Origin: Candidatus Kuenenia hertensis
GTDB lineage: Bacteria; Planctomycetota; Brocadiia; Brocadiales; Brocadiaceae
DNA length: 32,034 bases
Assembly (NCBI GenBank): GCA_021646465.1
Contig: SOET01000046.1
Location: forward strand, 1-32,034
Reading direction: 5' to 3'
Shown here: positions 18,499 through 30,594 of the stretch, piece by piece
Numbering within the stretch: position 1 is the first letter of the stretch
Layout: every line of letters begins with the position of its first letter
The notes under the pieces: generated by a model
What the model was told of the DNA's origin: nothing
What the model saw: the letters and a program-made list of their open reading frames with translations, nothing else
Databases searched by the model: none
Made by a program: the position numbers and the translations under genes

Positions 18499-19842
18499 AT
18501 GGTAGCAGAATCTGTACTTGATCGTACGTTGCCCCAAAGTATAGATGCCGAAATGAGTGTTCTTGGCGCCATGTTGCTTGACAATGAAGTGATAAGTTTA
18601 ATTGTCCCGGTATTGAATAAGCAAAGTTTTTATAAAACAGCCCACCAGCACATATACCAGGCCATAATAGATTTATATGATAAGGGACAAGCAGTTGATT
18701 TGGTTTTATTGAGAGAAGAGTTAAAGAAACGTTCTTTGCTTGAAAATGTTGGTGATACGGAGTATTTAATGGAACTGGAGGTTGCAGTTCCTACTATAGG
18801 AAATGTAGAATATTATGCGAATATAGTACGAGAAAATGCCATAAAAAGAAACCTCATCGAAGTTGCTGCAAACATTCAAAAACAGGCTTTTGACGGCGCC
18901 GTTGATACCGGTTTTTTACTGGATTCCTCCGAAAGGGCAATTTTTGAAATTACACAAAAAAAATTTAATGCATCATCCATTAAATTAAATGAAATACTGA
19001 AAGAAACTTACAGACGTATCGAAAGCCTGCATGACAGGAAAAGCAGGTTAACAGGATTATCCACCGGTTATTTTGATTTTGATGACCTTACCTGCGGATT
19101 GCAGCCTTCCGAACTTATTATTGTAGCGGCAAGACCCAGTATGGGGAAGACAAGTTTTGTTATGAATATTATTGAACATATTGGGGTTGTAGAAAAAAAG
19201 CCGGTAGCAATATTTTCTATGGAAATGTCAGCCCAGCAATTAGCGCAAAACATGCTGTGTTCTCACTCAAAGATTGATGCGCATAAACTGAGAAAAGGAT
19301 TTCTGGATGATGATGACAGGCTATGGAGCGCGCTTTCAAAAGGGCTGGGGTCTCTTTCTGAAGCGCCTATATTTATTGAAGACACACCCGGGCTGACAGT
19401 GTTGGAAGTGCGTGCGAAGGCGAGGAGATTAAAAGCCCAATATGATATTCAACTAATTGCAGTGGATTATTTACAGTTGATGGAAGCGCCGCGGGGAGAA
19501 AATCGTCAGCAAGAGATTTCGATAATTTCCCGTGGTTTAAAATCTCTTGCCAGAGAATTGGCAATACCGGTAATTGCCGTATCTCAGTTAAACAGATCCG
19601 TAGAGTCAAGGGAAGGGCATAGGCCAAGAATGTCAGACTTGCGTGAATCAGGGTCTATTGAGCAGGATGCGGATGTTATTGCCTTACTTCACAGGGAAGA
19701 CTACTTTAATCCTGATAATAAGGATGGTACGGCAGAACTCATTATTGCAAAACAGCGTAACGGACCCACAGGAGTTATAAAATTGAGTTTTCTCTCACAT
19801 TGTATGCGTTTTGAAAATTTCACATCTTTAGGAATCGAATGA
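18499..19842 (+). CDS. dnaB: Replicative DNA helicase
   Basis: The 447-aa hexameric helicase unwinds DNA at the replication fork. The N-terminal DnaB domain (LPQSIDAEMSVLGAMLLDNE) and a linker precede the RecA-like motor. That motor carries Walker A ARPSMGKTSF, Walker B LIAVDYLQLM, and the motifs AVSQLNRSVESR and LRESGSIEQDADVI. No intein or insertion is present. Its last codons overlap the start of bamA by 4 bp (ATGA), which links replication and envelope genes in one transcript. Confidence 0.98.
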   Translation: MVAESVLDRTLPQSIDAEMSVLGAMLLDNEVISLIVPVLNKQSFYKTAHQHIYQAIIDLYDKGQAVDLVLLREELKKRSLLENVGDTEYLMELEVAVPTIGNVEYYANIVRENAIKRNLIEVAANIQKQAFDGAVDTGFLLDSSERAIFEITQKKFNASSIKLNEILKETYRRIESLHDRKSRLTGLSTGYFDFDDLTCGLQPSELIIVAARPSMGKTSFVMNIIEHIGVVEKKPVAIFSMEMSAQQLAQNMLCSHSKIDAHKLRKGFLDDDDRLWSALSKGLGSLSEAPIFIEDTPGLTVLEVRAKARRLKAQYDIQLIAVDYLQLMEAPRGENRQQEISIISRGLKSLARELAIPVIAVSQLNRSVESREGHRPRMSDLRESGSIEQDADVIALLHREDYFNPDNKDGTAELIIAKQRNGPTGVIKLSFLSHCMRFENFTSLGIE

Positions 19843-22217
19843 AACCAGTTAAGGTTTTGTTGTATACCGCGAAGATAATTGTGTTGCTTGTCTTGGCCTT
19901 GTATTGTGCAAACGGTAAGGTTTTTTGCGATGAAAATCCTGATAAAAACACCGGTATTATCAGGAAGGTTGAAATCCGGGGAAACCAGAGGATTAGTACT
20001 GCGGCGATAAGAAGCAGTATCCGGTCAAAAGAAGGCGACCTGTATGACCCTAATCTGGTAAGCCAGGATGTAGATGCCATTTGGTCGTTGGGGTTCTTTG
20101 ACAATATAGAGGTTGAAATAGAGGAAACAGCGGATGGTTTAAACCTGATTTTCCTTGTTTCAGAAAGGGCGGTTATTGATAAAATACAGTTTTCCGGCAA
20201 TAAAAAGATTAAATCCAAGAAATTGGCAAAGGAAATTGAGATAAAAGAGGGAGATACCTTAAAGTACCACTTGCTGAAACTGGATGAAGATAAAATACGG
20301 GATTTATATAAGAAAAAATGTTTTTCAAGGGTACAAGTGCTTGCGGAGAGCAAGGTCATAAATGGCGAAACCGTGGTTATCTTTAATATAGAAGAAGGAC
20401 CCCGTGTACGTATTTTCGATATTCAGTTCAAAGGAAATACCAGTTATAAACCGAGAAAACTTCTTAAGCAGATGGAAACCCGTAAGAAGCGTTTTCCAAC
20501 ACTGATTTTTCCGGGAAGATTTGCGCAGGATGTATTTGAGTCTGATATTGCAAAACTAAAAGAGTTCTACATGAATAATGGATGGTTGGATGTTGATGTG
20601 GGTTGGGAGATAGCGTACGAAAATGATAACAGCGAGATGTATATAACCATCCACGTAAAAGAAGGGGAAAGATATTATGTGGATACATTAGATATAAACG
20701 GAGCAGCAATATTTACGGGGGATGAATTGAAAGCCGCATTAAAATTAAAAGAGGGCGGACCTTTCTTTTTAGATGCGGTGGAAAAAGATACTTATCAAAT
20801 CCGGTTGGCGTATGGTGCGCAGGGATATCTTGCAACTGTTGTTAATGAAAAGCACACATTTGCTGCCGAAGAGCCTAAAGTAAAAGTAGTTTTTGATATT
20901 GAGGAAAGAGACAGATACTATATCGATAAAATAAAGATAGTCGGAAACGATAAAACGAGAGATAACGTTATTCGCAGACAACTGACCTTTAACCCTGGCG
21001 AGAGATTAAATGTAGAAAAAATACGTGATAGCCAGAGACGCTTAACAAATACCGGATATTTTGATGTGGAATCGGGTATGCCTGCCGGAATTAGTTTTGA
21101 ACAAGGTTCCGAACCAAACAAGAAAAATATAATCGTAGAAGTAAAAGAAGGAAGAACCGGTATGCTGAGGTTTGGCGGCGGATACGGTGCAAATGTCGGA
21201 GCATTTGGCGATATTTCATATACCGACAGAAACTTCGATATTTTTGATTTTCCGAAAAGCTGGAATGATTTTTTAAGTGGCAATGCTTTTCGTGGCGCCG
21301 GAGAAATATTAACGTTACGTTTCAGTCCCGGTTTTGAAAGGACGGAAGTCCTTTTGTCCTTGACGAATCCTTCAGTATTTGACTCTCCGTATAGCGCAGG
21401 AGCAAGTGCATTTAACTATATCAGGTGGTATAGCCTTTATGAGCAGAAAAGTAGCGGGTCGAGAATTTCGCTGGGAAGAGAATTGGTGAGGGATACATAT
21501 GTGAGGGTGAGCCCTTCATTTGAATTGATTGGTATTGAAAGAAGGGAAGATGAGGATGATGCACCGCAGGATGTTTTAGATGCTGAGGGGAGTCATTTGA
21601 AAACAGGCATCACGTTCTCGGCTGAGATAAACAAAACAGATAATATATTTGTGCCAACAAAAGGGTATGCAATCGATACATCGGTAGAGTTTGCCTGCCT
21701 GGATGTAGATATAGTGAAATACGATATAAGGGCAAAAAAATATTCAACACTTTTTGAAATACCCAAATGGGGAAAACATGTCGTGGCTTATGGGGGCACC
21801 TTTGGGATTGTCGAGTCAACATCGGGAGAGGATGTTCCGATTTTCGAAAGGTATTATGCGGGAGGCTTTGGGTCTCTCAGAGGCTTTGAATACAGGGGAG
21901 TGTCGCCTCTTGATCAGAAAACAGACGAACAGGTGGGAGGTGACCTTTTAGTATTGATGAATACGGAGTATTTGGTTCCTTTGTATAAAGATGTTGTTCG
22001 TGTTGCGTTATTTGTAGATGCTGGAAAGGCAGATAGATCTATAAGCGATTTCAGTTTTGAGCGTTTCAGGGTGTCGAGCGGGCTTGGATTAAGGTTGAAC
22101 GTTCCGTTCCTTGGGCAGTCAGCCATTTCAATTGATTACGGTATTCCAATAATGAGAGAAGAGGGGGATGAAACCCAGGGATTTTCATTTAATTTCGGAG
22201 GGGGCAGTAGCTTTTAA
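19839..22217 (+). CDS. bamA: Outer membrane protein assembly factor BamA
   Basis: BamA folds beta-barrel proteins into the outer membrane. The 792-aa protein has a signal peptide (about 1-30), repeated POTRA domains (about 38-430, beginning IRKVEIRGNQRISTAAIR) and a C-terminal Omp85 barrel (about 440-792). The barrel contains the conserved loop YYAGGFGSLRGFEYRG, equivalent to the (V/I)RGF motif. It ends in phenylalanine, as expected for a beta-signal. The ATG overlaps the dnaB stop, with AGGA just upstream in dnaB. skp follows after 2 bp. The gene shows that the organism builds a true outer membrane. Confidence 0.96.
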   Translation: MKPVKVLLYTAKIIVLLVLALYCANGKVFCDENPDKNTGIIRKVEIRGNQRISTAAIRSSIRSKEGDLYDPNLVSQDVDAIWSLGFFDNIEVEIEETADGLNLIFLVSERAVIDKIQFSGNKKIKSKKLAKEIEIKEGDTLKYHLLKLDEDKIRDLYKKKCFSRVQVLAESKVINGETVVIFNIEEGPRVRIFDIQFKGNTSYKPRKLLKQMETRKKRFPTLIFPGRFAQDVFESDIAKLKEFYMNNGWLDVDVGWEIAYENDNSEMYITIHVKEGERYYVDTLDINGAAIFTGDELKAALKLKEGGPFFLDAVEKDTYQIRLAYGAQGYLATVVNEKHTFAAEEPKVKVVFDIEERDRYYIDKIKIVGNDKTRDNVIRRQLTFNPGERLNVEKIRDSQRRLTNTGYFDVESGMPAGISFEQGSEPNKKNIIVEVKEGRTGMLRFGGGYGANVGAFGDISYTDRNFDIFDFPKSWNDFLSGNAFRGAGEILTLRFSPGFERTEVLLSLTNPSVFDSPYSAGASAFNYIRWYSLYEQKSSGSRISLGRELVRDTYVRVSPSFELIGIERREDEDDAPQDVLDAEGSHLKTGITFSAEINKTDNIFVPTKGYAIDTSVEFACLDVDIVKYDIRAKKYSTLFEIPKWGKHVVAYGGTFGIVESTSGEDVPIFERYYAGGFGSLRGFEYRGVSPLDQKTDEQVGGDLLVLMNTEYLVPLYKDVVRVALFVDAGKADRSISDFSFERFRVSSGLGLRLNVPFLGQSAISIDYGIPIMREEGDETQGFSFNFGGGSSF

Positions 22218-22219
22218 AT

Positions 22220-22855
22220 ATGAAATATAAAAAATATTTGTTTGATATGAAATTTGTTTATATGTGCATAACAGTTGCCATGAGTTTATGCTTCCTTTTG
22301 CCGAATAATGCAGGGGCTCAGGGCGGTGACACTTCTTCAGGCGGCTTAAAAATCGGGGTGGTAGATTTAAACATTGTGTTTGAAAAATATGAAAAGAGAA
22401 AAAAATATGATGCTGATTTAAGAGAAGAAGAAAAATCATACCAAACCAAAATAAATGATAAGAAAAAAGAACTGGTGAGTTTAAAAGATAAAATACAGTT
22501 GATGGACCTTGGGAGCCAGGACCGGAAAAAGTACGAAGAAGAATTTGAGAGGAAAAATATTGAGTTGGAATCCTATGCGAAGGTTGCTGAAAAGAGCCTG
22601 ATGAGAAAATATAAAGAGTCATTTGAGCTTCTGTATTCAGAAGTATTAAAAGAGATAGAGGCTATAGGGAGGCAAAATCGTTACGATTTGATTATCAAAA
22701 AAGAAGAGGCCGAGTTGCAAAGCGGGGGTATTTCCGAAATGCAATTTAAGGTAGGGATAAAAACCGTCTTGTATCACTCTGATGCGGTTGATATTACAAA
22801 TCAGGTAATAAATTTGCTAAACAAAAAATATTCCAAAGCAGACAAAGGAAAGTAG
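22220..22855 (+). CDS. skp: OmpH/Skp-family periplasmic chaperone
   Basis: Skp holds unfolded outer-membrane proteins in the periplasm and delivers them to BamA. The 211-aa sequence has a signal peptide ending near NNAGA-QGG, then the family start KIGVVDLNIVFEKYEKRKKYDADL and a long Lys/Glu-rich coiled coil (about 55-145), and ends with a small beta segment. An in-frame Met at codon 10 is an alternative start. It follows bamA by 2 bp and lpxC by its TTG begins 3 bp after its stop. Confidence 0.93.
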   Translation: MKYKKYLFDMKFVYMCITVAMSLCFLLPNNAGAQGGDTSSGGLKIGVVDLNIVFEKYEKRKKYDADLREEEKSYQTKINDKKKELVSLKDKIQLMDLGSQDRKKYEEEFERKNIELESYAKVAEKSLMRKYKESFELLYSEVLKEIEAIGRQNRYDLIIKKEEAELQSGGISEMQFKVGIKTVLYHSDAVDITNQVINLLNKKYSKADKGK

Positions 22856-22858
22856 TTT

Positions 22859-23743
22859 TTGGATACCTTGCAAAAAACAATTGGAAAGCCTGCAGAGTGT
22901 TCTGGTACGGGAATGTTTCGGGGAGAAAGTGTCCGAATAGCATTTAAGCCAGCTCCTGCGAATTCCGGAATAAATTTCGTACGCGTCGATCTGCCACATC
23001 GTCCAAAAATACCCGCGAATGTTCACTTCTTATCAAGTACAGTAAAACGTGTTTTTTTAAAGAAGGAAGATGCTGAAGTAGAAGGAATAGAACATTTAAT
23101 GGCTGCTCTTGCCGGGTTAGGGATCGACAATTTAGAAATTGAAATTCATGGCAGGGAAGTACCCGCAGGTGATGGAAGTGCGAAATACTTTATGGATGTC
23201 CTGAGAGAAGCAAAAATTGTTAATTTGGATGGGAAAAAACAAATTTTCAAAATTCAGGAGCCTATTACGGTGATCAATGGAAAAGCAAGTATTGTAGCGT
23301 TACCCCATGATGAGGGATTGTTTTTTTCTTACACGCTGGACTTTGATGGTTTTTTTATTGAACAACAAACGTATGAAATGGAATTTAATGAGGAAATTTT
23401 TTCCAGAGAAGTTGCTTCCGCCCGAACGTTCGGACTCAGCACATACGTAGAAGAATTCAAAAAAATGGGGTTAGGGAAAGGTATTACGGATGAAAACAGC
23501 TTCATTATCCATGAAGACGGAAAAATTACAAAGCCTCTTTCTATGAATCCTGCAGAATTACGATTTCCGAATGAACATGTAAGACATAAAATTTTGGATC
23601 TTATTGGAGATCTTTATTTGGCTAATGTTGGTATTCAGGGTCATATCGTGGCAAAAAGGTCCGGACATTCGCTCAACGTAGAATTAGCAAGGAAAATAGC
23701 AAATATCTCGCATTTAAAACGTAAAATGTTAAATTCAGATTAA
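22859..23743 (+). CDS. lpxC: UDP-3-O-acyl-N-acetylglucosamine deacetylase
   Basis: LpxC carries out the committed deacetylation of lipid A synthesis using Zn2+. The catalytic set is complete: Glu78-His79 in EGIEHLMAAL, the zinc ligands His243 and Asp247 in VRHKILDLIGD, and His270 in KRSGHSLNVE. The 294-aa length corresponds to LpxC alone, without the FabZ fusion seen in some bacteria. Translation starts at TTG 22859, with AAAGGAAAG overlapping the end of skp. It lies directly upstream of lpxA; lpxD and fabZ, often found here, are missing. Confidence 0.97.
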   Translation: MDTLQKTIGKPAECSGTGMFRGESVRIAFKPAPANSGINFVRVDLPHRPKIPANVHFLSSTVKRVFLKKEDAEVEGIEHLMAALAGLGIDNLEIEIHGREVPAGDGSAKYFMDVLREAKIVNLDGKKQIFKIQEPITVINGKASIVALPHDEGLFFSYTLDFDGFFIEQQTYEMEFNEEIFSREVASARTFGLSTYVEEFKKMGLGKGITDENSFIIHEDGKITKPLSMNPAELRFPNEHVRHKILDLIGDLYLANVGIQGHIVAKRSGHSLNVELARKIANISHLKRKMLNSD

Positions 23744-23778
23744 GAGGCTGACTTATATAAAAAAAAAGGGGAAATGTA

Positions 23779-24597
23779 ATGAAAATTCACCGATGGGCAC
23801 TTGTTCACCCCGGTGCTAAGTTAGGCAGTGATATTGAAATTGGTCCTTTTTCTGTTATAGGTGAAAATGTTACCATTGGTGACGAATCGGTAATAAAGAA
23901 TAATGCAACGATAATTGGCAATACTACTATCGGGAAAAATAATATCATCCATCCGAATGCAGTATTGGGCGCTGAGCCACAAGATCTTAAATACCGGGGT
24001 GAAGAATCTTTGCTTACTATGGGAGATAACAATGTTGTGAGAGAAGGTGTTACTATTAATATGGGGACTGCCGGCGGCGGCGGGAAAACGGTGATAGGGA
24101 ATAATAACTTTTTTATGGCCTGTTCGCATGTTGCCCATGATTGTATTATAGAAGATAATGTCCTCCTGGCAAACGGTGTGTTACTGGGTGGGCATGTCGT
24201 GCTGGAAAGAGGGGTTAAACTTATGGGGCTGGTAGGCATACAGCCCTTTGTAACCATAGGACGTTATGCTTATGTTGGCGGGCATTCCAGAATTGTGCAG
24301 GATGTACCTCCATACGTAATAATTGAAGGACATCCGGCAAGGATTCGTCAGGTAAACGTAATAGGATTGGAAAGAGAAGGTTTTTCAGAAGAGCAAATTG
24401 GTAATATTAAAGAATCATTTCGGGCGTTATTTCGTTCCGGTGAGTTGAACAGAAATAAAATTCTGGAACAATTAGGGAAACAGGAAAACATTTCTCCTGA
24501 AGTTGAATACCTGATCACTTTTCTGAAAAACATTGAAAAAGGTAAACACGGACGATACAGAGAAATATTGAGAGTTTCACCTGCAATAGCTCGTTAG
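23779..24597 (+). CDS. lpxA: UDP-N-acetylglucosamine acyltransferase LpxA
   Basis: LpxA transfers a 3-hydroxyacyl group from ACP to the sugar nucleotide, the first step of lipid A synthesis. The 272-aa protein consists of left-handed beta-helix hexapeptide repeats (IGENVTIGDESVIKNNATIIG and on) and a helical C-terminal domain (from about 195). The catalytic His is His120 in MACSHVAHDC, and the HPNAVLGAEPQDLKYRGE segment is conserved. An AGGGGAAA element precedes the ATG. A Gfo/Idh oxidoreductase follows after 14 bp, raising the possibility that the acceptor is a 3-amino sugar nucleotide. Confidence 0.97.
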   Translation: MKIHRWALVHPGAKLGSDIEIGPFSVIGENVTIGDESVIKNNATIIGNTTIGKNNIIHPNAVLGAEPQDLKYRGEESLLTMGDNNVVREGVTINMGTAGGGGKTVIGNNNFFMACSHVAHDCIIEDNVLLANGVLLGGHVVLERGVKLMGLVGIQPFVTIGRYAYVGGHSRIVQDVPPYVIIEGHPARIRQVNVIGLEREGFSEEQIGNIKESFRALFRSGELNRNKILEQLGKQENISPEVEYLITFLKNIEKGKHGRYREILRVSPAIAR

Positions 24598-24611
24598 TCT
24601 AAAAAGTAATT

Positions 24612-25628
24612 ATGCATAAATTAAAGGTTGCGGTAATAGGTGTTGGTCACTTGGGTAAAGAACATGCAAGAGTATTCACCGAATTACCTGGCGTTGAGTT
24701 GGTTGGAGTAGTTGATGTACAAAACAAACAAGCAGAAAAAATTGCCCATTGCTATAATACACAATGGTATACCGATTATAAAGAAGTAATAGATAAGGTT
24801 TCTGCGGTAAGTATTGCCGTTCCCACAAAATCGCATTACGCAATTGCAAAAGATTTCCTCACTCATGATGTTCACGTTCTTGTTGAAAAACCGATGACAG
24901 GAACCGTTTCTGAAGCGAAAGAATTAATAAATTTAAGCAAGGTGAAAGGGCTTGTACTTCAGGCCGGGTATATTGAAAGGTTTAATCCGGTCATCGTTGC
25001 AATAAAAAAACTTTCTACCAATCCAAGATTTATCGAGTGTCATCGTTTAAGTCCCTTTACATTTCGTTCTGCAGATATAGGTGTAGTCCTGGATTTGATG
25101 ATACATGACATAGATATAATATTGAACATGACGGGTTCAAAGGTGAAAAAAGTGGATGCTATCGGCGTCAATGTTATTGGCGATAAAGAGGACATTGCAA
25201 ATGCCCGTATTCAGTTTCAGAATGGTTGTGTGGCAAACATCACTGCAAGCAGGGTTTCAATTCAGCCTATGCGGAAAGTGAGATTATTTTCTGAAGATTC
25301 GTATATTTCTATTGATTATCAGAAGAAAGAAGCTTTAATATATAAAAAATCTCCCAAACTGACGCTCAGTGCGTTAAATATTTCAGAAATGGACGTTTCG
25401 ACCATTGCGGATCTGAAAAGTTATGTGTTTGGTGATTTGTTAAAGGTAGAACATATAAGAATGGATGATTACGAACCTCTAAAAAAAGAACTGGAGTCTT
25501 TTGTTACGTGTGTTTTGGAAAACAGGGAACCGGAAGTTTCAGGTGAAGAAGGATTAAAGGCAATTGAGGTTGCAAATGATATTTTGCGTGAGATAGAAAG
25601 GAATCTTGCGCAGTCGCGCACACAATGA
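24612..25628 (+). CDS. Gfo/Idh/MocA-family oxidoreductase, possible GnnA
   Basis: This 338-aa NAD(P)-dependent oxidoreductase has the N-terminal Rossmann motif AVIGVGHLGKEHARV, the LVEKPM segment near residue 94 and QAGYIERFNPV, followed by the C-terminal alpha/beta substrate domain. Located directly after lpxA, it may act on the lipid A sugar nucleotide. In Acidithiobacillus and Leptospira the enzyme GnnA, encoded near lpxA, oxidises UDP-GlcNAc at C3 so that GnnB can aminate it, giving amide-linked lipid A. No GnnB-type aminotransferase is present here, so that role is only a hypothesis. It is the last gene of the envelope run. The next gene starts 18 bp later and may be cotranscribed. Confidence 0.88.
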   Translation: MHKLKVAVIGVGHLGKEHARVFTELPGVELVGVVDVQNKQAEKIAHCYNTQWYTDYKEVIDKVSAVSIAVPTKSHYAIAKDFLTHDVHVLVEKPMTGTVSEAKELINLSKVKGLVLQAGYIERFNPVIVAIKKLSTNPRFIECHRLSPFTFRSADIGVVLDLMIHDIDIILNMTGSKVKKVDAIGVNVIGDKEDIANARIQFQNGCVANITASRVSIQPMRKVRLFSEDSYISIDYQKKEALIYKKSPKLTLSALNISEMDVSTIADLKSYVFGDLLKVEHIRMDDYEPLKKELESFVTCVLENREPEVSGEEGLKAIEVANDILREIERNLAQSRTQ

Positions 25629-25646: not shown

Positions 25647-26885
25647 ATGGAGTCATTTGATTTTCTACACATCGATGCAGAGCTTGTTGAGGGCAAAATT
25701 GTTGGAAGGGCCGGGGGTATGTTGGGCCATATGTTGCAACATTACGTTGATCAGTTCTTCGAAAAGGTGAATTCGCTTAAGGTTATTGCTACGGTAAATG
25801 GTATGAATGTATATAACCTTTATAATCCTCCGATGCCAAGCCAGGCAGGAATGAGATTCCTTGAGAGAAAATTGCGGATGATGTTAAGCAAGATGGCATT
25901 CCCTGTAACTGCAAACCTTGCGATAACCCATAAATGCCAGTGTCAATGTATTCATTGCAGTGCAGACCCATTCATCGACTACACAAAAAAAGAACTTACT
26001 GTTGAAGAGATTAAAACGGTAGTCGATGGTGCGTTGGATCTTGGTGCAAGTCTTATTATTTATGTTGGCGGGGAGCCAATGCTTCGTGAGGATCTCTATG
26101 ATCTTATCCGGTATGTGGATAAAACAAAGGCGATTCCCATGATTTTTACAAACGGGATAATGTTAACCGAGGAAAATGTTCAGAGGCTTGCGAAGGCAGG
26201 TTTATTTTCTCTGAATATTTCTATCGATAGCAGTGAACCAGAGCTGCATAATGAATTTCGTGCAGTGCCCGGTTGTTATCAAAAGGCATTTGAAGGAGCT
26301 GAACGCTGCCGAAAAGCCGGTATTTTAACGGGGATATCTACGTATGCCACGAGTGAAAGTATTAAAACCGGAAAAGTGGAAAAGCTTTTGAAGATAGCAC
26401 AGGAACAGGGATTTTCAGAGGTTACCATATTTGATTGTATTCCGTCAGGACGATTTTTAAAAGATACTTCAAAAATCTTAACGGCGGAAGACAGAAAGCA
26501 GCTGATTGCGATTACCAGGAAATACCATGAGATGGATCATCCGATGGGTATTAATTGTATGTCAATTATCAACTCGCCAAGGGGAGTTGGTTGTTACGGG
26601 GCGCAGTCACAATTTTATATGACCGCGTATGGCGATATAAATCCTTGCGATTTTAATCCGATTAATTTTGGAAATGTTCGCGATATGTCTATTCAGGAGA
26701 TATGGAAGAAGATGGTTTCTCATCCTGATTTTAACAAGAGATATCCCACCTGCCGAATGCAGAGCAAGGCTTACCGGAAGAAATACATAGATCCGCTTCC
26801 CAAGAACGTAAAGTTGCCCGTGAAAATAGAAGATATTGCACCTGTTGAAACACCTGATAAAGAAGTTACTCTTGTGGGTGTTTGA
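25647..26885 (+). CDS. Radical SAM/SPASM-domain protein
   Basis: This 412-aa enzyme contains the [4Fe-4S]-SAM motif Cys97-x3-Cys101-x2-Cys104 in THKCQCQCIHC, with an extra Cys99 between the ligands. The SAM-binding GGEPMLRED follows at 141-149. The C-terminal part (from about 315) has SPASM-like cysteines Cys316, Cys334 (NPCDFNPINFGNV) and Cys369. An 85-residue N-terminal extension with GRAGGMLGHMLQHY precedes the core. The overall pattern resembles NirJ/AhbC/PqqE-type enzymes that modify tetrapyrroles or peptides. Its position upstream of redox-type small proteins and an octaheme cytochrome suggests a role in cofactor or peptide modification for that system; the substrate is unknown. GGAGG precedes the ATG. 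Confidence 0.88.
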   Translation: MESFDFLHIDAELVEGKIVGRAGGMLGHMLQHYVDQFFEKVNSLKVIATVNGMNVYNLYNPPMPSQAGMRFLERKLRMMLSKMAFPVTANLAITHKCQCQCIHCSADPFIDYTKKELTVEEIKTVVDGALDLGASLIIYVGGEPMLREDLYDLIRYVDKTKAIPMIFTNGIMLTEENVQRLAKAGLFSLNISIDSSEPELHNEFRAVPGCYQKAFEGAERCRKAGILTGISTYATSESIKTGKVEKLLKIAQEQGFSEVTIFDCIPSGRFLKDTSKILTAEDRKQLIAITRKYHEMDHPMGINCMSIINSPRGVGCYGAQSQFYMTAYGDINPCDFNPINFGNVRDMSIQEIWKKMVSHPDFNKRYPTCRMQSKAYRKKYIDPLPKNVKLPVKIEDIAPVETPDKEVTLVGV

Positions 26886-27007
26886 GGGATAGTGTCTCTG
26901 GCTGATCTCTTCTGAAGCTGAAAAAAGGTTATGATCAGGTGAGACAATAAATTAAAAAGTAGCAAGAGAATCGTTAATCGTTATCCGATTATTTTGGGAG
27001 GTGAAGT

Positions 27008-27238
27008 ATGGATAAAGAAGTTCTTATTACAAAAAAAATGAGTACCGGAGAAGTAACAAAAAAATATCCGGCTACTAAAGCAGTTTTCACAAAGTATTTT
27101 GGAAAGGGTTGTTTTGATTGCCCGTCTTTTGGTACTGAGGACATAAATTTAGCATGTATGATGCACAATACAGATGTTGATAAATTTGTGCAAGAATTAA
27201 ATGATGCGGCTTCACAGGAGACAAGTAAAACGTCATAA
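27008..27238 (+). CDS. DUF1858/hybrid-cluster-associated redox disulfide protein
   Basis: This 76-aa protein has the compact family pattern: an N-terminal SxGEVTKKYPAT segment, GKGCFDCPSFGTEDINLAC with a CxxC pair (Cys36 and Cys39), and HNTDVDKFVQELN. The family is named for its association with hybrid cluster proteins, which handle hydroxylamine or NO, and for a presumed redox-active disulfide. No hybrid cluster protein is encoded in the window. A strong GGGAGG lies 5 bp before the ATG. It sits between the radical SAM gene and the cupins. Confidence 0.85.
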   Translation: MDKEVLITKKMSTGEVTKKYPATKAVFTKYFGKGCFDCPSFGTEDINLACMMHNTDVDKFVQELNDAASQETSKTS

Positions 27239-27286
27239 GTCTATTGACTTTGACTTAAACATAGTAAATAAACATAAACACTTTAT

Positions 27287-27301
27287 TACATAATTTATGT
27301 A
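27287..27301. promoter_or_regulatory. Palindrome upstream of the cupin genes, candidate operator
   Basis: TACATAATTTATGTA is a perfect 7-1-7 inverted repeat, 46 bp before the first cupin start. Two TTGACT hexamers lie 32-43 bp upstream of it (27244-27249 and 27250-27255), but no good -10 accompanies them. It does not match the FNR consensus. Regulation is a guess from symmetry and position. Confidence 0.35.
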
Positions 27302-27346
27302 TGCGATTTAATTTTTTTAAAAGATTTAAGAGGAAGATAAATAAAT

Positions 27347-27649
27347 TTGAAAATTATTAATTTGCAGGAAGAAATAGCATTTCACAAAGAGCAGTTTATT
27401 CCCAACATTCTTTACGCATCTCCAAAAGTTAAAATGCCTCTTATCTGTATGGAACCAGGTCAGGCAATCCCACCTCACGGAGGTAATTCTGTAGGTATAT
27501 TCTATGTAAAGGAAGGTAAAGGGATTTTTACCCTCAATGATGAGTCTATTCCTATGGAAAAAGGAACTGTTGTTGTTGCTCCGGAAGGTTCTTCGAGGGG
27601 AATGAAATGTATAGAAAGAATGGTTGTTTTAGCGGTAAGCGCAGGGTAG
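27347..27649 (+). CDS. Small cupin-domain protein 1
   Basis: This 100-aa protein is a single cupin barrel: PLICMEPGQAIPPHGGNSVGIFYVKEGKGIFTLNDE is the first motif and MEKGTVVVAPEGSSRGMKC the second. Only one clear His remains in motif 1 (PPHGG), so metal binding may be altered. It starts at TTG 27347 with AGGAAG about 10 bp upstream. A second, divergent cupin follows 10 bp later; the two may form a heterodimer. The ligand is unknown. Confidence 0.78.
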   Translation: MKIINLQEEIAFHKEQFIPNILYASPKVKMPLICMEPGQAIPPHGGNSVGIFYVKEGKGIFTLNDESIPMEKGTVVVAPEGSSRGMKCIERMVVLAVSAG

Positions 27650-27659
27650 GGGTATTTGC

Positions 27660-27968
27660 ATGGCTAAAATAGTTTTAGAAGAGAAAGTAAAATTTTCACA
27701 ACAGAGTTATTTATCGGACATATTATTTAAAAGCGACAACGCTCAATTAGAATTGCTGTGTTTGGAAGAAGGACAGGAAGTTGTTCCGCACGCAGAGAAT
27801 TTTCAGGTAATCATTTTGGTTATTTCCGGTCGTGGTTCTTTAACGCAGGGAACCGATGTATACGACCTTAAGCCGGATTCAGTAATAATTTTTGAAGGTA
27901 CGGAACCGTGTGGAATAAAAGCGTGCGGGCAATTGGTTCTCGTGCGGTATGTTATACCATCGCCGTAA
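27660..27968 (+). CDS. Small cupin-domain protein 2
   Basis: This 102-aa protein is a cupin with LELLCLEEGQEVVPHAENFQVIILVISGRGSL as motif 1 and LKPDSVIIFEGTEPCGIKACG as motif 2. It resembles the preceding cupin in length and layout but is well diverged, as expected of an old tandem duplication. Motif 1 again keeps one His. Two cysteines near the C-terminus (PCGIKAC) could be redox-active or bind metal. GGTAGGGG precedes the ATG. Confidence 0.78.
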   Translation: MAKIVLEEKVKFSQQSYLSDILFKSDNAQLELLCLEEGQEVVPHAENFQVIILVISGRGSLTQGTDVYDLKPDSVIIFEGTEPCGIKACGQLVLVRYVIPSP

Positions 27969-27995
27969 AGAAATACTTTTAAAAAGGGAGAACAG

Positions 27996-28232
27996 ATGAG
28001 TATTGAAGGACCGATCATATTAGACGTGAGAAACATTATACCAAGAGAAAGGCATCCAAAAATTTTTAATACTTTTGATGGGTTAAAAGCGGGAGAGATG
28101 ATGGTATTGATAAATGACCATGACCCAAAACCCCTAAAATACCAATTGGATGCAGAACGAGCCGGGCAAATGGAATGGAAATACGTTGAACAAGGTCCGG
28201 ATGTCTGGAAGGTTGAGATAATAAAAAAATAA
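27996..28232 (+). CDS. DUF2249 protein
   Basis: This 78-aa protein matches the DUF2249 pattern: ILDVRNIIPRERHPKIFNTFDGLKAGE, the hallmark INDHDPKPLKYQL and a C-terminal WKVEIIKK. The family is frequently found in nitrogen-oxide and Fe-S related gene sets and near hemerythrin-like proteins, but has no proven activity. GGGAG precedes the ATG. It ends 48 bp before the octaheme cytochrome gene. Confidence 0.86.
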   Translation: MSIEGPIILDVRNIIPRERHPKIFNTFDGLKAGEMMVLINDHDPKPLKYQLDAERAGQMEWKYVEQGPDVWKVEIIKK

Positions 28233-28280
28233 TATTTTCTAATATAAGGAGAATAAATAATTATCATAGGAGATGTAGAT

Positions 28281-30062
28281 ATGGGTAAATCTTTAAAAAT
28301 TGTAACGGTAATGTGTTTGTGTATTTTTTTTGCCGGTACGCATTTTGTTTTTAAGCATGTATATGCGGATACGAAAAGTTATGCAGGGGTAAAGGAAAAG
28401 CTTTCTTCAAAATCAGAAAAAAAGGAGAAAGCTGTTTCATCAGAAAAAAAGGAAGTTGTATCGGAAACGAAAGATACTAAAATCGAACAAAAAACGGTAA
28501 CACCGCAAGAAGAGAAAAAAGAGATTGTTAAGCAGGAAAAACCCGGTGAGAAAGTGGAAACTCCTGTTCCTGAAAAAAAAGAAGAAAAACCCGGTATTGT
28601 GGTAAAAAAAGATGTGGTAGATACACATCCGAAAGACAAAAGAACCATACAACAAATTATTTCCGAACTTACCGGAGAAAAGATAGGGCCTGATAATTCC
28701 GGCGATGTTTATCATGGTGGTTTAACGGCTACGTATACCCCGCCTGAGGAATTGCTGCCTGGTGAAGGAAAATTTGGGAAATTATTTAATTTTTTACCTC
28801 TTATGAGATGGTATGATCCGGATCACTATTTTACACCGAACCAGGCGATTGGAGGCGAATTTACGCACGAAGAATGTCTTATGTGTCATACGGTTCAGAC
28901 TCCCGGTATCGTAGCACAATGGAAGAAGAGCAAACATGCGGCAGCGGAACAGGTGGTTGGCTGTGATAAATGTCATGGTAATAATCACCAACAGTTGTAT
29001 ATGCCTTCCTGGCAACATTGTGGCGAATGTCATCCAAAGGAAAAAGAAGGGCATCGTGGCGGGGGATTGGCGTCTCATACTTACGCCTTTCATGTAAGTA
29101 CAATAGAAGCTCCCTGGCAGATTGCAAAGCCGGCGGCAGAGGTAACTGCCTGTGCTACATGTCATGGAATAGCAGAGAATCGATGTGATGGTTGCCATAC
29201 AAGGCATGATTTTTCAGTGGCAGAAGCCAGGAAACCAAACAATTGCGGTATTTGCCATACAGGGTTGGATCATTATGAATATGAGATGTACAAGGAATCT
29301 TACCATGGAATGATATATGAATCGGAGCAGCATAATTGGGACTGGACGAAACCAATGAAACCTGAAAATTATAAAACCCCTACATGCGCATATTGCCACA
29401 TGAAAGATGGCGAACATAATTCGCAAAAATTTTCCACAATTAACAGTCACATGGGTACTTCATTGGTGGACAGAGGAGCGCCAAAGTATAAGGAAGCAAG
29501 GCAGAATTGGATAAACACATGTAAAGGTTGCCACTCTCCAAGGTTCGCAACCGATCAATTCGAGGCGATGGACGAAGCGGTAAAAGTAAGCTTCACAAAA
29601 TGGCGTGAAGCTATGAAAATAGTAGTTGACCTTTATAATGAAGGGATGCTGGATCCGATGCCAAAAGATTTGGCGCCTGATTATGCCGGCCATTATACCT
29701 TTAGTCTGCTTGGCGGAGAAGGAAGAATGTATAATGTGTCTGATATAGAAAGAACTTCATTTGAGATGCTTGTATATATTACCAATGCAATCTATAAAGC
29801 AATGGCGCACGGAGCAATGTACGGCGCTACCTATGGTAAAGGTGCTTTTCTGCAAGACCGCTGGTTGATCCAGATAAAGGCGGAAGCAAGCAGGCTTCGA
29901 CGAATAAAGGCTTTGGAAGAGACGGTGGGGATACAGCACAAGGCATACGATTTCTGGAAGCACGGCGAATATACTGACATGCTTCTGGGTTGGAGGAGAA
30001 AACCGGATGACGTTGACAAGGCTGCATGTAAGCACGAGGGAGCTGATTGTTTGGTCGAATAG
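28281..30062 (+). CDS. Octaheme c-type cytochrome, HAO-like
   Basis: This 593-aa exported protein has a signal peptide ending near VYA-D (residues 1-29) and a Lys/Glu/Pro-rich low-complexity stretch (about 35-118). The heme domain carries eight CxxCH motifs, at Cys199, 228, 247, 291, 302, 322, 369 and 414. A helical C-terminal domain (about 425-560) contains NVSDIERTSFEML and a Tyr/Ala/Gly-rich AMAHGAMYGATYG. Eight hemes in this spacing plus a heme-free C-terminal helical domain fit the hydroxylamine oxidoreductase family, which in anammox bacteria includes oxidising enzymes with a crosslinked tyrosine and reducing forms without it. I cannot tell which applies here. The charged N-terminal segment is unusual. 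No C-terminal membrane helix is seen, so it is soluble or partner-bound. AGGAG precedes the ATG, and an intrinsic terminator follows. Confidence 0.92.
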   Translation: MGKSLKIVTVMCLCIFFAGTHFVFKHVYADTKSYAGVKEKLSSKSEKKEKAVSSEKKEVVSETKDTKIEQKTVTPQEEKKEIVKQEKPGEKVETPVPEKKEEKPGIVVKKDVVDTHPKDKRTIQQIISELTGEKIGPDNSGDVYHGGLTATYTPPEELLPGEGKFGKLFNFLPLMRWYDPDHYFTPNQAIGGEFTHEECLMCHTVQTPGIVAQWKKSKHAAAEQVVGCDKCHGNNHQQLYMPSWQHCGECHPKEKEGHRGGGLASHTYAFHVSTIEAPWQIAKPAAEVTACATCHGIAENRCDGCHTRHDFSVAEARKPNNCGICHTGLDHYEYEMYKESYHGMIYESEQHNWDWTKPMKPENYKTPTCAYCHMKDGEHNSQKFSTINSHMGTSLVDRGAPKYKEARQNWINTCKGCHSPRFATDQFEAMDEAVKVSFTKWREAMKIVVDLYNEGMLDPMPKDLAPDYAGHYTFSLLGGEGRMYNVSDIERTSFEMLVYITNAIYKAMAHGAMYGATYGKGAFLQDRWLIQIKAEASRLRRIKALEETVGIQHKAYDFWKHGEYTDMLLGWRRKPDDVDKAACKHEGADCLVE

Positions 30063-30094
30063 TTTTTTGATTTTTGATTAGTTCATTAATATGA

Positions 30095-30140
30095 ACAGAA
30101 GGCATAACTCTTAATAAAAGATTATGCCTTCTGTTTTTTT
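30095..30140 (+). terminator. Intrinsic terminator after the octaheme cytochrome gene
   Basis: ACAGAAGGCATAA at 30095-30107 pairs perfectly with TTATGCCTTCTGT at 30122-30134 (13 bp, 14-nt loop), followed by a run of seven T (30134-30140). This closes the transcript of the radical SAM to octaheme cluster. Confidence 0.93.
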
Positions 30141-30234
30141 CTATTGTTGTTTTGGTAAAAAGAGATAAAATCGAAAATGTCCTGAGTTGATTTTTGATTA
30201 TAAAATTAGGTGACATTAATGACTGGAGTAAAAA

Positions 30235-30594
30235 ATGAAAAACTATCGATATTGTTTTTTTTTCGTTGTACTCTTTGCTGCATGTTTTTTTGGATGTTCT
30301 AAAAAACAGACAATCTTGGTGGAAAGAGAAGCTATTTGGGAAGTATATGAAAAAGAATGCCAAAAGTGCCATAGGGCACATGGGAGAGGGAGTCTTATTG
30401 GCAGACTATTTTTTAAAGTCCCGGATTTTACCGATGTTAAATGGCAGGATAATGCTTCAGATTCGAGATTGATTATTCATGTAGCAAATGGACTAAGAAA
30501 GATGCCCTCCTTTAAAGGAAAATTAAAAGATGAAGAAATTGTGGATTTGGTAAAAACTTGTGTCCGGAGTTTCTATCCGGCTGTAGAACGATGA
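30235..30594 (+). CDS. Monoheme class I cytochrome c, lipoprotein
   Basis: This 119-aa protein has a hydrophobic start with a lipobox CFFGCS (Cys21), predicting a lipid anchor. One heme site, Cys42-Gln-Lys-Cys45-His46, follows, with Met90 in LRKMPSFKGKL as the likely sixth ligand. The pattern is that of a small electron-shuttle cytochrome. It sits just past the terminator of the octaheme gene, so it is probably transcribed separately, but it could pass electrons to or from that protein. GGAG lies shortly before the ATG. Confidence 0.9.
   Translation: MKNYRYCFFFVVLFAACFFGCSKKQTILVEREAIWEVYEKECQKCHRAHGRGSLIGRLFFKVPDFTDVKWQDNASDSRLIIHVANGLRKMPSFKGKLKDEEIVDLVKTCVRSFYPAVER

Follow-up and report, generated by a model that had tools for sequence, protein, structure and literature searches.

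Do the six genes that end in an octaheme cytochrome in Candidatus Kuenenia hertensis (Brocadiaceae) make up one dedicated pathway, or were they brought together from separate sources? The question is raised by a 32,034-nucleotide stretch of DNA, hereafter called the window (contig SOET01000046.1, positions 1 to 32,034), in which a gene for a radical SAM/SPASM protein (25647-26885) is followed, all on the plus strand, by four small genes and by a gene for an octaheme HAO-like cytochrome (28281-30062). The four small genes, here termed the cassette, encode a DUF1858 protein (27008-27238), a cupin that we call cupin A (27347-27649), a divergent cupin B (27660-27968), and a DrpA-like DUF2249 protein (27996-28232). 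The original prediction, which was made from the letters of the window, had read this set as a single redox module. The open reading frames are present at these coordinates, and Pfam and NCBIfam assignments agreed with the domain names that had been given to them. The gene set is nevertheless a composite of three pieces with separable histories, and not a single dedicated module; the explanation set out below, taken as a whole, is one that we judge to be a little above even in probability.

Conservation of the gene set across Brocadiales

A total of 62 Brocadiales genomes were searched, and about 70 gene neighbourhoods were read. The cassette was found in 32 of the 33 Brocadiaceae genomes, the sole exception being a genome that is 58% complete. 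Of the 32 cassette-bearing genomes, 30 had the genes in the order radical SAM, DUF1858, cupin A, (cupin B), DUF2249, and octaheme, with a few contigs stopping inside the octaheme gene; the two exceptions were genome G031, which is without the radical SAM gene, and genome G033, which is without the octaheme gene at the cassette site. Cupin B was present in only 10 of the 32 genomes and was not found in the other 22, which leave too little room for it between cupin A and DUF2249. Because identities across Brocadiaceae were high (radical SAM, 85-95%; DUF1858, 83-95%; cupin A, 71-93%; DUF2249, 81-94%; octaheme, about 70-91%), the genes are not chance open reading frames.

Outside Brocadiaceae, the radical SAM gene occurred without the cassette in families f2 (2 genomes) and f3 (8 genomes) and in genome G059, and the cassette occurred without the radical SAM gene in the Scalindua-type genus g20 (family f4) and in family f5. 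Relatives of the octaheme (65-71% identity) were found without a cassette in f3. In three other genomes (G044, G045, and G060), the radical SAM gene and the cassette were both present on different contigs, and G060 was without DUF2249. The predicted module was thus co-conserved within Brocadiaceae, with cupin B as a variable member, but came apart beyond the family, where neighbourhood comparison found the radical SAM gene, the cassette, and the octaheme each occurring separately. By the refuting condition that came with the prediction, a single module is therefore ruled out beyond Brocadiaceae. What survived is a narrower link between the cassette and the octaheme; a single dedicated pathway was left unsupported.

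The radical SAM gene and the envelope cluster

Directly upstream of the radical SAM gene, the window contains an envelope cluster, BamA-OmpH-LpxC-LpxA-Gfo/Idh (19839-25628, plus strand; names from NCBIfam and Pfam), in which the Gfo/Idh protein is UDP-GlcNAc 3-dehydrogenase-like. This order was conserved, and the radical SAM gene followed the cluster in f1, f2, f3, and three f4 genera wherever contigs were long enough; in most of the f2-f4 contigs read, rpsB-tsf-pyrH-frr came next. Its orthologues shared 72-95% identity across the order. Homologues in other Planctomycetota (51-56% identity) lay downstream of LpxA-Gfo/Idh-LpxB or near lipid A genes on three of the sufficiently long contigs, at loci that carried LpxD/LpxC/LpxA/Gfo-Idh/LpxB, then tsf-pyrH-frr, and no octaheme at that site. 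Locus L131 was an exception, and the contig of L130 begins at the radical SAM gene, with the upstream side unseen. The home of the radical SAM gene is thus an old planctomycetal outer-membrane and lipid A cluster, where it is also found in families devoid of the cassette, and this speaks against its predicted place in an octaheme pathway.

G031 is a complete genome (4.41 Mb, one contig) of the same genus as the window, and its HOX is identical to that of PDB entry 4n4j over 476 of 476 residues; G031 is therefore Kuenenia stuttgartiensis or nearly so. At L110:6359-6380, the Gfo/Idh stop is followed by the ribosome-binding site and start of the radical SAM gene, which are fused to DUF1858 across an ATGGA microhomology. 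Judged from this junction, the radical SAM gene was cleanly deleted, which left DUF1858 directly behind the envelope cluster. The octaheme of G031 still bears the Tyr; in this organism, therefore, it does not need the radical SAM protein.

These data bear on the reading in which all six genes form one dedicated pathway, with the radical SAM protein as maturase of the octaheme or its heme and with redox or ligand helpers in the form of the small proteins. That reading can draw on the common direction of the genes, the one terminator at their end, and the order kept in 30 of 32 cassette-bearing Brocadiaceae genomes, as well as on the radical SAM protein, which scored nearest to the heme-modifying AhbD and NirJ2. 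It is opposed by K. stuttgartiensis (G031), which is without the radical SAM gene yet has an octaheme that is P460-competent as predicted from its residues; by the absence of the gene from 13 of 13 g20 genomes, of which those examined carry Tyr-bearing HAO relatives; and by radical SAM genes in f2 and f3 genomes that carry no cassette, and in other Planctomycetota, where they accompany the envelope cluster. We consider such a pathway very improbable. The idea that the radical SAM protein is the maturation enzyme of the octaheme was rejected in view of the deletion in K. stuttgartiensis, where the cassette and the octaheme are both retained, and of the Scalindua-type genomes.

The protein itself (PF04055 and PF13186, with a CxxxCxxC motif near residues 97-104) was also rejected as an AhbD/NirJ heme enzyme, scoring 161 bits with rSAM_ahbD_hemeb and 140 bits with NirJ2 versus a cut-off of 500. 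Its scores were far below all NCBIfam equivalog cut-offs shown. An AlphaFold model (predicted local distance difference test [pLDDT] score, 88) gave generic matches to SPASM and other radical SAM enzymes (SkfB, SuiB, PqqE, and MoaA) and pointed to no specific function.

Another way to divide the genes would be to take the cassette and the radical SAM gene as the functional unit, in which, for example, the cupins and the DUF2249 protein serve as carriers for the radical SAM product, leaving the octaheme as a bystander. In G033, the two did remain together after the octaheme had departed; G031, on the other side, lost the radical SAM gene and retained the cassette, the cassette persists without that gene in the Scalindua-type genus and in f5, and G044, G045, and G060 carry the two on different contigs. 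We therefore give this division only a slim chance. Most likely, the radical SAM protein has a role in envelope or other housekeeping chemistry, not in that of the octaheme, and it probably lies outside the octaheme unit. Weighing against this is the adjacency of the radical SAM gene to the cassette in 31 of 32 Brocadiaceae genomes, and a joint role of the two that is specific to this lineage is conceivable. The gaps in the window are 122 bp between the radical SAM gene and DUF1858 and 108 bp between DUF1858 and cupin A. Placing the radical SAM gene in the envelope cluster clears away a misleading "maturase" story.

The octaheme and its joining to the cassette

The predicted HAO-like identity of the octaheme was borne out by eight CXXCH motifs between residues 199 and 418 and by Multi-haem_cyto and Hao_C domains (PF13447 and PF22142, above cut-off). 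Over 459 amino acids, the protein was 55% identical to kustc1061 (4n4j); its Tyr518 aligned with the P460 cross-link Tyr451 of kustc1061, and the Asp-His pair was retained. In a tree, it grouped with the K. stuttgartiensis (G031) copy in a Brocadiaceae clade that has 11 rows and a support of 99, apart from HOX, and the window's genome carries its own HOX orthologue on contig C43 (94% identity to kustc1061). As a hydrazine dehydrogenase (NF052343), the octaheme was rejected at 440.5 bits versus an equivalog cut-off of 900.

The HAO-like octaheme kusta0043 (KsCSTR_40830) of Kuenenia stuttgartiensis is 591 amino acids long in a published table (PMC3482989, PMC12053348). The G031 copy of the octaheme, to which the window's protein is 86% identical, has that same length, and the other close octahemes of G031 are HOX and two HDH copies; for these reasons, the octaheme of the window was filed as the kusta0043 orthologue. 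By length and elimination, and not by the kusta0043 sequence itself, it is thus assigned as the Brocadiaceae orthologue of kusta0043, a P460-type HAO paralogue. No description of the gene context of kusta0043 was found in the literature searched.

Given the intact P460 active site, the octaheme most likely oxidises hydroxylamine (to nitric oxide [NO]) or hydrazine, and would do so outside the cytoplasm. Its N-terminus has a signal-like segment and a K/E-rich linker of about 85 residues (28380-28640), which connects the signal sequence to the catalytic domain. Several Brocadia genomes instead encode an octaheme whose N-terminus resembles a lipoprotein signal. Anammox genomes encode about ten HAO-like octahemes each, and for most of them neither a role nor a mode of regulation has been established.

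How the octaheme came to lie behind the cassette could be followed outside Brocadiaceae. In g20 of f4 and in f5, the cassette forms one block without the radical SAM gene and mostly without an octaheme, and 13 Scalinduaceae/f5 loci had the cassette with no flanking octaheme. Most Scalinduaceae loci have a convergent aminotransferase gene behind the cassette, and the same aminotransferase (59-62% identity) is convergent behind the cassette and octaheme in six Brocadiaceae loci. The older order was therefore probably cassette and aminotransferase, and the simplest reading is that the octaheme was inserted between them in the Brocadiaceae ancestor. In G049 and G058, moreover, a type B octaheme, which belongs to a different paralogue clade in the tree, directly precedes the cassette, in the same orientation. 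Since both the paralogue and the side of the cassette differ, this was apparently a second joining, independent of the first, in a Scalindua-type lineage. The octaheme paralogue of the window was already known; what is newly remarked is a small-gene partner set that was acquired twice.

The two joinings suggest selection for linked expression and a real link between the cassette and octahemes. The competing view is that an octaheme gene arrived next to the cassette by chance in the ancestor of Brocadiaceae and stayed there through stable gene order, with no functional link; we regard this as possible, if on the unlikely side. The cassette and the octaheme are indeed each found without the other, and G033, in which the octaheme moved off, did not lose the cassette: its octaheme (L099, G033:C1:694698-696248) is at 0.69 Mb of a 3.46-Mb contig and its cassette at 3.42 Mb. 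Against such a view stand the attachment of a different paralogue to the cassette's opposite end and what followed this separation, the only one seen: the octaheme lost its cross-link Tyr and active-site Asp and evolved faster (end-branch length, 0.29 versus about 0.02-0.13 in the rest of the clade). The second joining and the altered octaheme of G033 are the best evidence that the neighbourhood is meaningful, and both are circumstantial. A functional link, if real, is not obligatory, because the cassette also occurs alone and f3 has close octaheme relatives without any cassette, and these occurrences weigh against it. The G033 octaheme may also have changed in function.

The type B clade (L111, G000:C49:70872-72257, and relatives in f1, f3, f4, and f5) keeps the cross-link Tyr and has Glu-Gln after the sixth heme motif, versus Asp-His in HOX, HDH, and the octaheme of the window. 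There was no G031 match to type B among the matches listed, and type B therefore has perhaps no studied orthologue.

Downstream of the octaheme gene, the strong intrinsic terminator that had been predicted at the end of the set was confirmed (30094-30143, plus strand): a perfect 14-bp inverted repeat (30094-30135) is followed by a T run, with a folding energy of -25.4 kcal/mol (z = -5.1). Beyond it lies a small monoheme cytochrome c gene (30235-30594), which, among the loci read, was confined at the octaheme locus to the window's genus and G035.

The cassette proteins and known systems

The DUF1858 protein stands alone, at 76 amino acids, and matched both PF08984 (46 bits) and TIGR03980, a hybrid-cluster-protein-associated redox disulfide domain (52 bits), above cut-off. 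Cupin A, which has a TTG start, matched PF07883 (Cupin_2) above cut-off; its invariant columns include a single His (H44) with C34 and E36 and no full three-His metal motif, and a standard metal site is therefore doubtful. Its model (pLDDT, 93) was closest in the PDB mainly to small uncharacterised cupins. Cupin B was 26% identical to cupin A and scored below the Pfam cut-off for PF07883. The DUF2249 protein (PF10006, 103 bits) was 66% identical over 70 amino acids to a DUF2249 protein of Thermus altitudinis, whose gene is preceded by two genes resembling transporters and followed by a DUF1858+DUF2249 gene, the layout published for drpA/drpB (PMC6282519). H20 and H42 were invariant in 12 Brocadiales sequences and are also present in the Thermus protein.

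No export signal was obvious by eye in the four cassette proteins, whereas the octaheme has one. A direct redox partnership is therefore unlikely, barring export without a signal, as has been reported for DrpA. We propose instead that the cassette is an older, separate set that would sense or handle a nitrogen-oxide or redox signal in the cytoplasm and may support the expression or maturation of nitrogen-oxide enzymes. A kusta0043-type octaheme, oxidising hydroxylamine or hydrazine outside the cytoplasm, would have entered directly behind it in the Brocadiaceae ancestor, and another paralogue would have joined its other end in a Scalindua-type lineage, with the repeated joining reflecting selection for linked expression. 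That the cassette is a cytoplasmic, nitrogen-oxide-responsive accessory set is put forward with moderate to low confidence. The fuller proposal, in which a Drp-like set of anammox bacteria senses nitrogen oxide, controls or assists HAO-family octahemes, and was coupled independently to two paralogues, is tentative and well below even in our estimation.

Gene neighbourhoods elsewhere gave a mixed picture. DUF2249 occurred with cupins in several Chloroflexi-type loci, and one locus (L192) brought together DUF1858, hemerythrin, a hemerythrin-DUF2249 fusion, and a cupin; at another (L179), an Rrf2 (NsrR/RirA-like) regulator near DUF2249 was closest to NsrR, below the NsrR cut-off. In Haloferax, all DUF2249 genes are induced under denitrification (PMC11218638). 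At three Scalindua-type loci (L114, L120, and L124), a gene for a flavodiiron protein (NO reductase-like) was observed in an operon divergent from the cassette.

Among known systems, the AhbD and NirJ2 radical SAM/SPASM enzymes are the closest NCBIfam models to the radical SAM protein, which differs in not being a member of either family. The octaheme shares with kustc1061 HOX its fold, its eight hemes, and the aligned cross-linking Tyr and Asp-His pair; it differs in overall sequence, in tree clade, and in the long K/E-rich N-terminal linker that HOX does not have. With kusta0043, it shares the P460-type HAO paralogue family and, in G031, the length, and there is no difference of substance. 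For the cassette, the nearest parallel is the DrpA/DrpB system of Thermus thermophilus, in which drpA and drpB are located behind the nar operon and nitrate reductase, once both proteins are lost, is expressed regardless of nitrate and retains about a tenth of its activity (PMC6282519). Three points weigh against the parallel: DrpB fuses an N-terminal DUF1858 domain to two DUF2249 domains (PMC6282519), whereas DUF1858 and DUF2249 are separate genes in the window; the Drp system has no reported cupin, whereas the window's cassette adds two; and a census of Pfam neighbours of DUF2249 outside Brocadiales gave mixed, scattered redox and Fe-S families and was not decisive. In its favor, the cassette has a single-domain DUF2249 protein that resembles a Thermus protein of the DrpA type and a DUF1858 protein that corresponds to the N-terminal domain of DrpB. 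Both systems would be tied to nitrogen oxides, with nitrate reductase as the partner in Thermus and an octaheme oxidase in the window. The cassette, joined twice to octahemes, may thus offer a handle on the control of the uncharacterised paralogue kusta0043, and would extend Drp-type proteins from nitrate respiration to hydroxylamine/NO chemistry.

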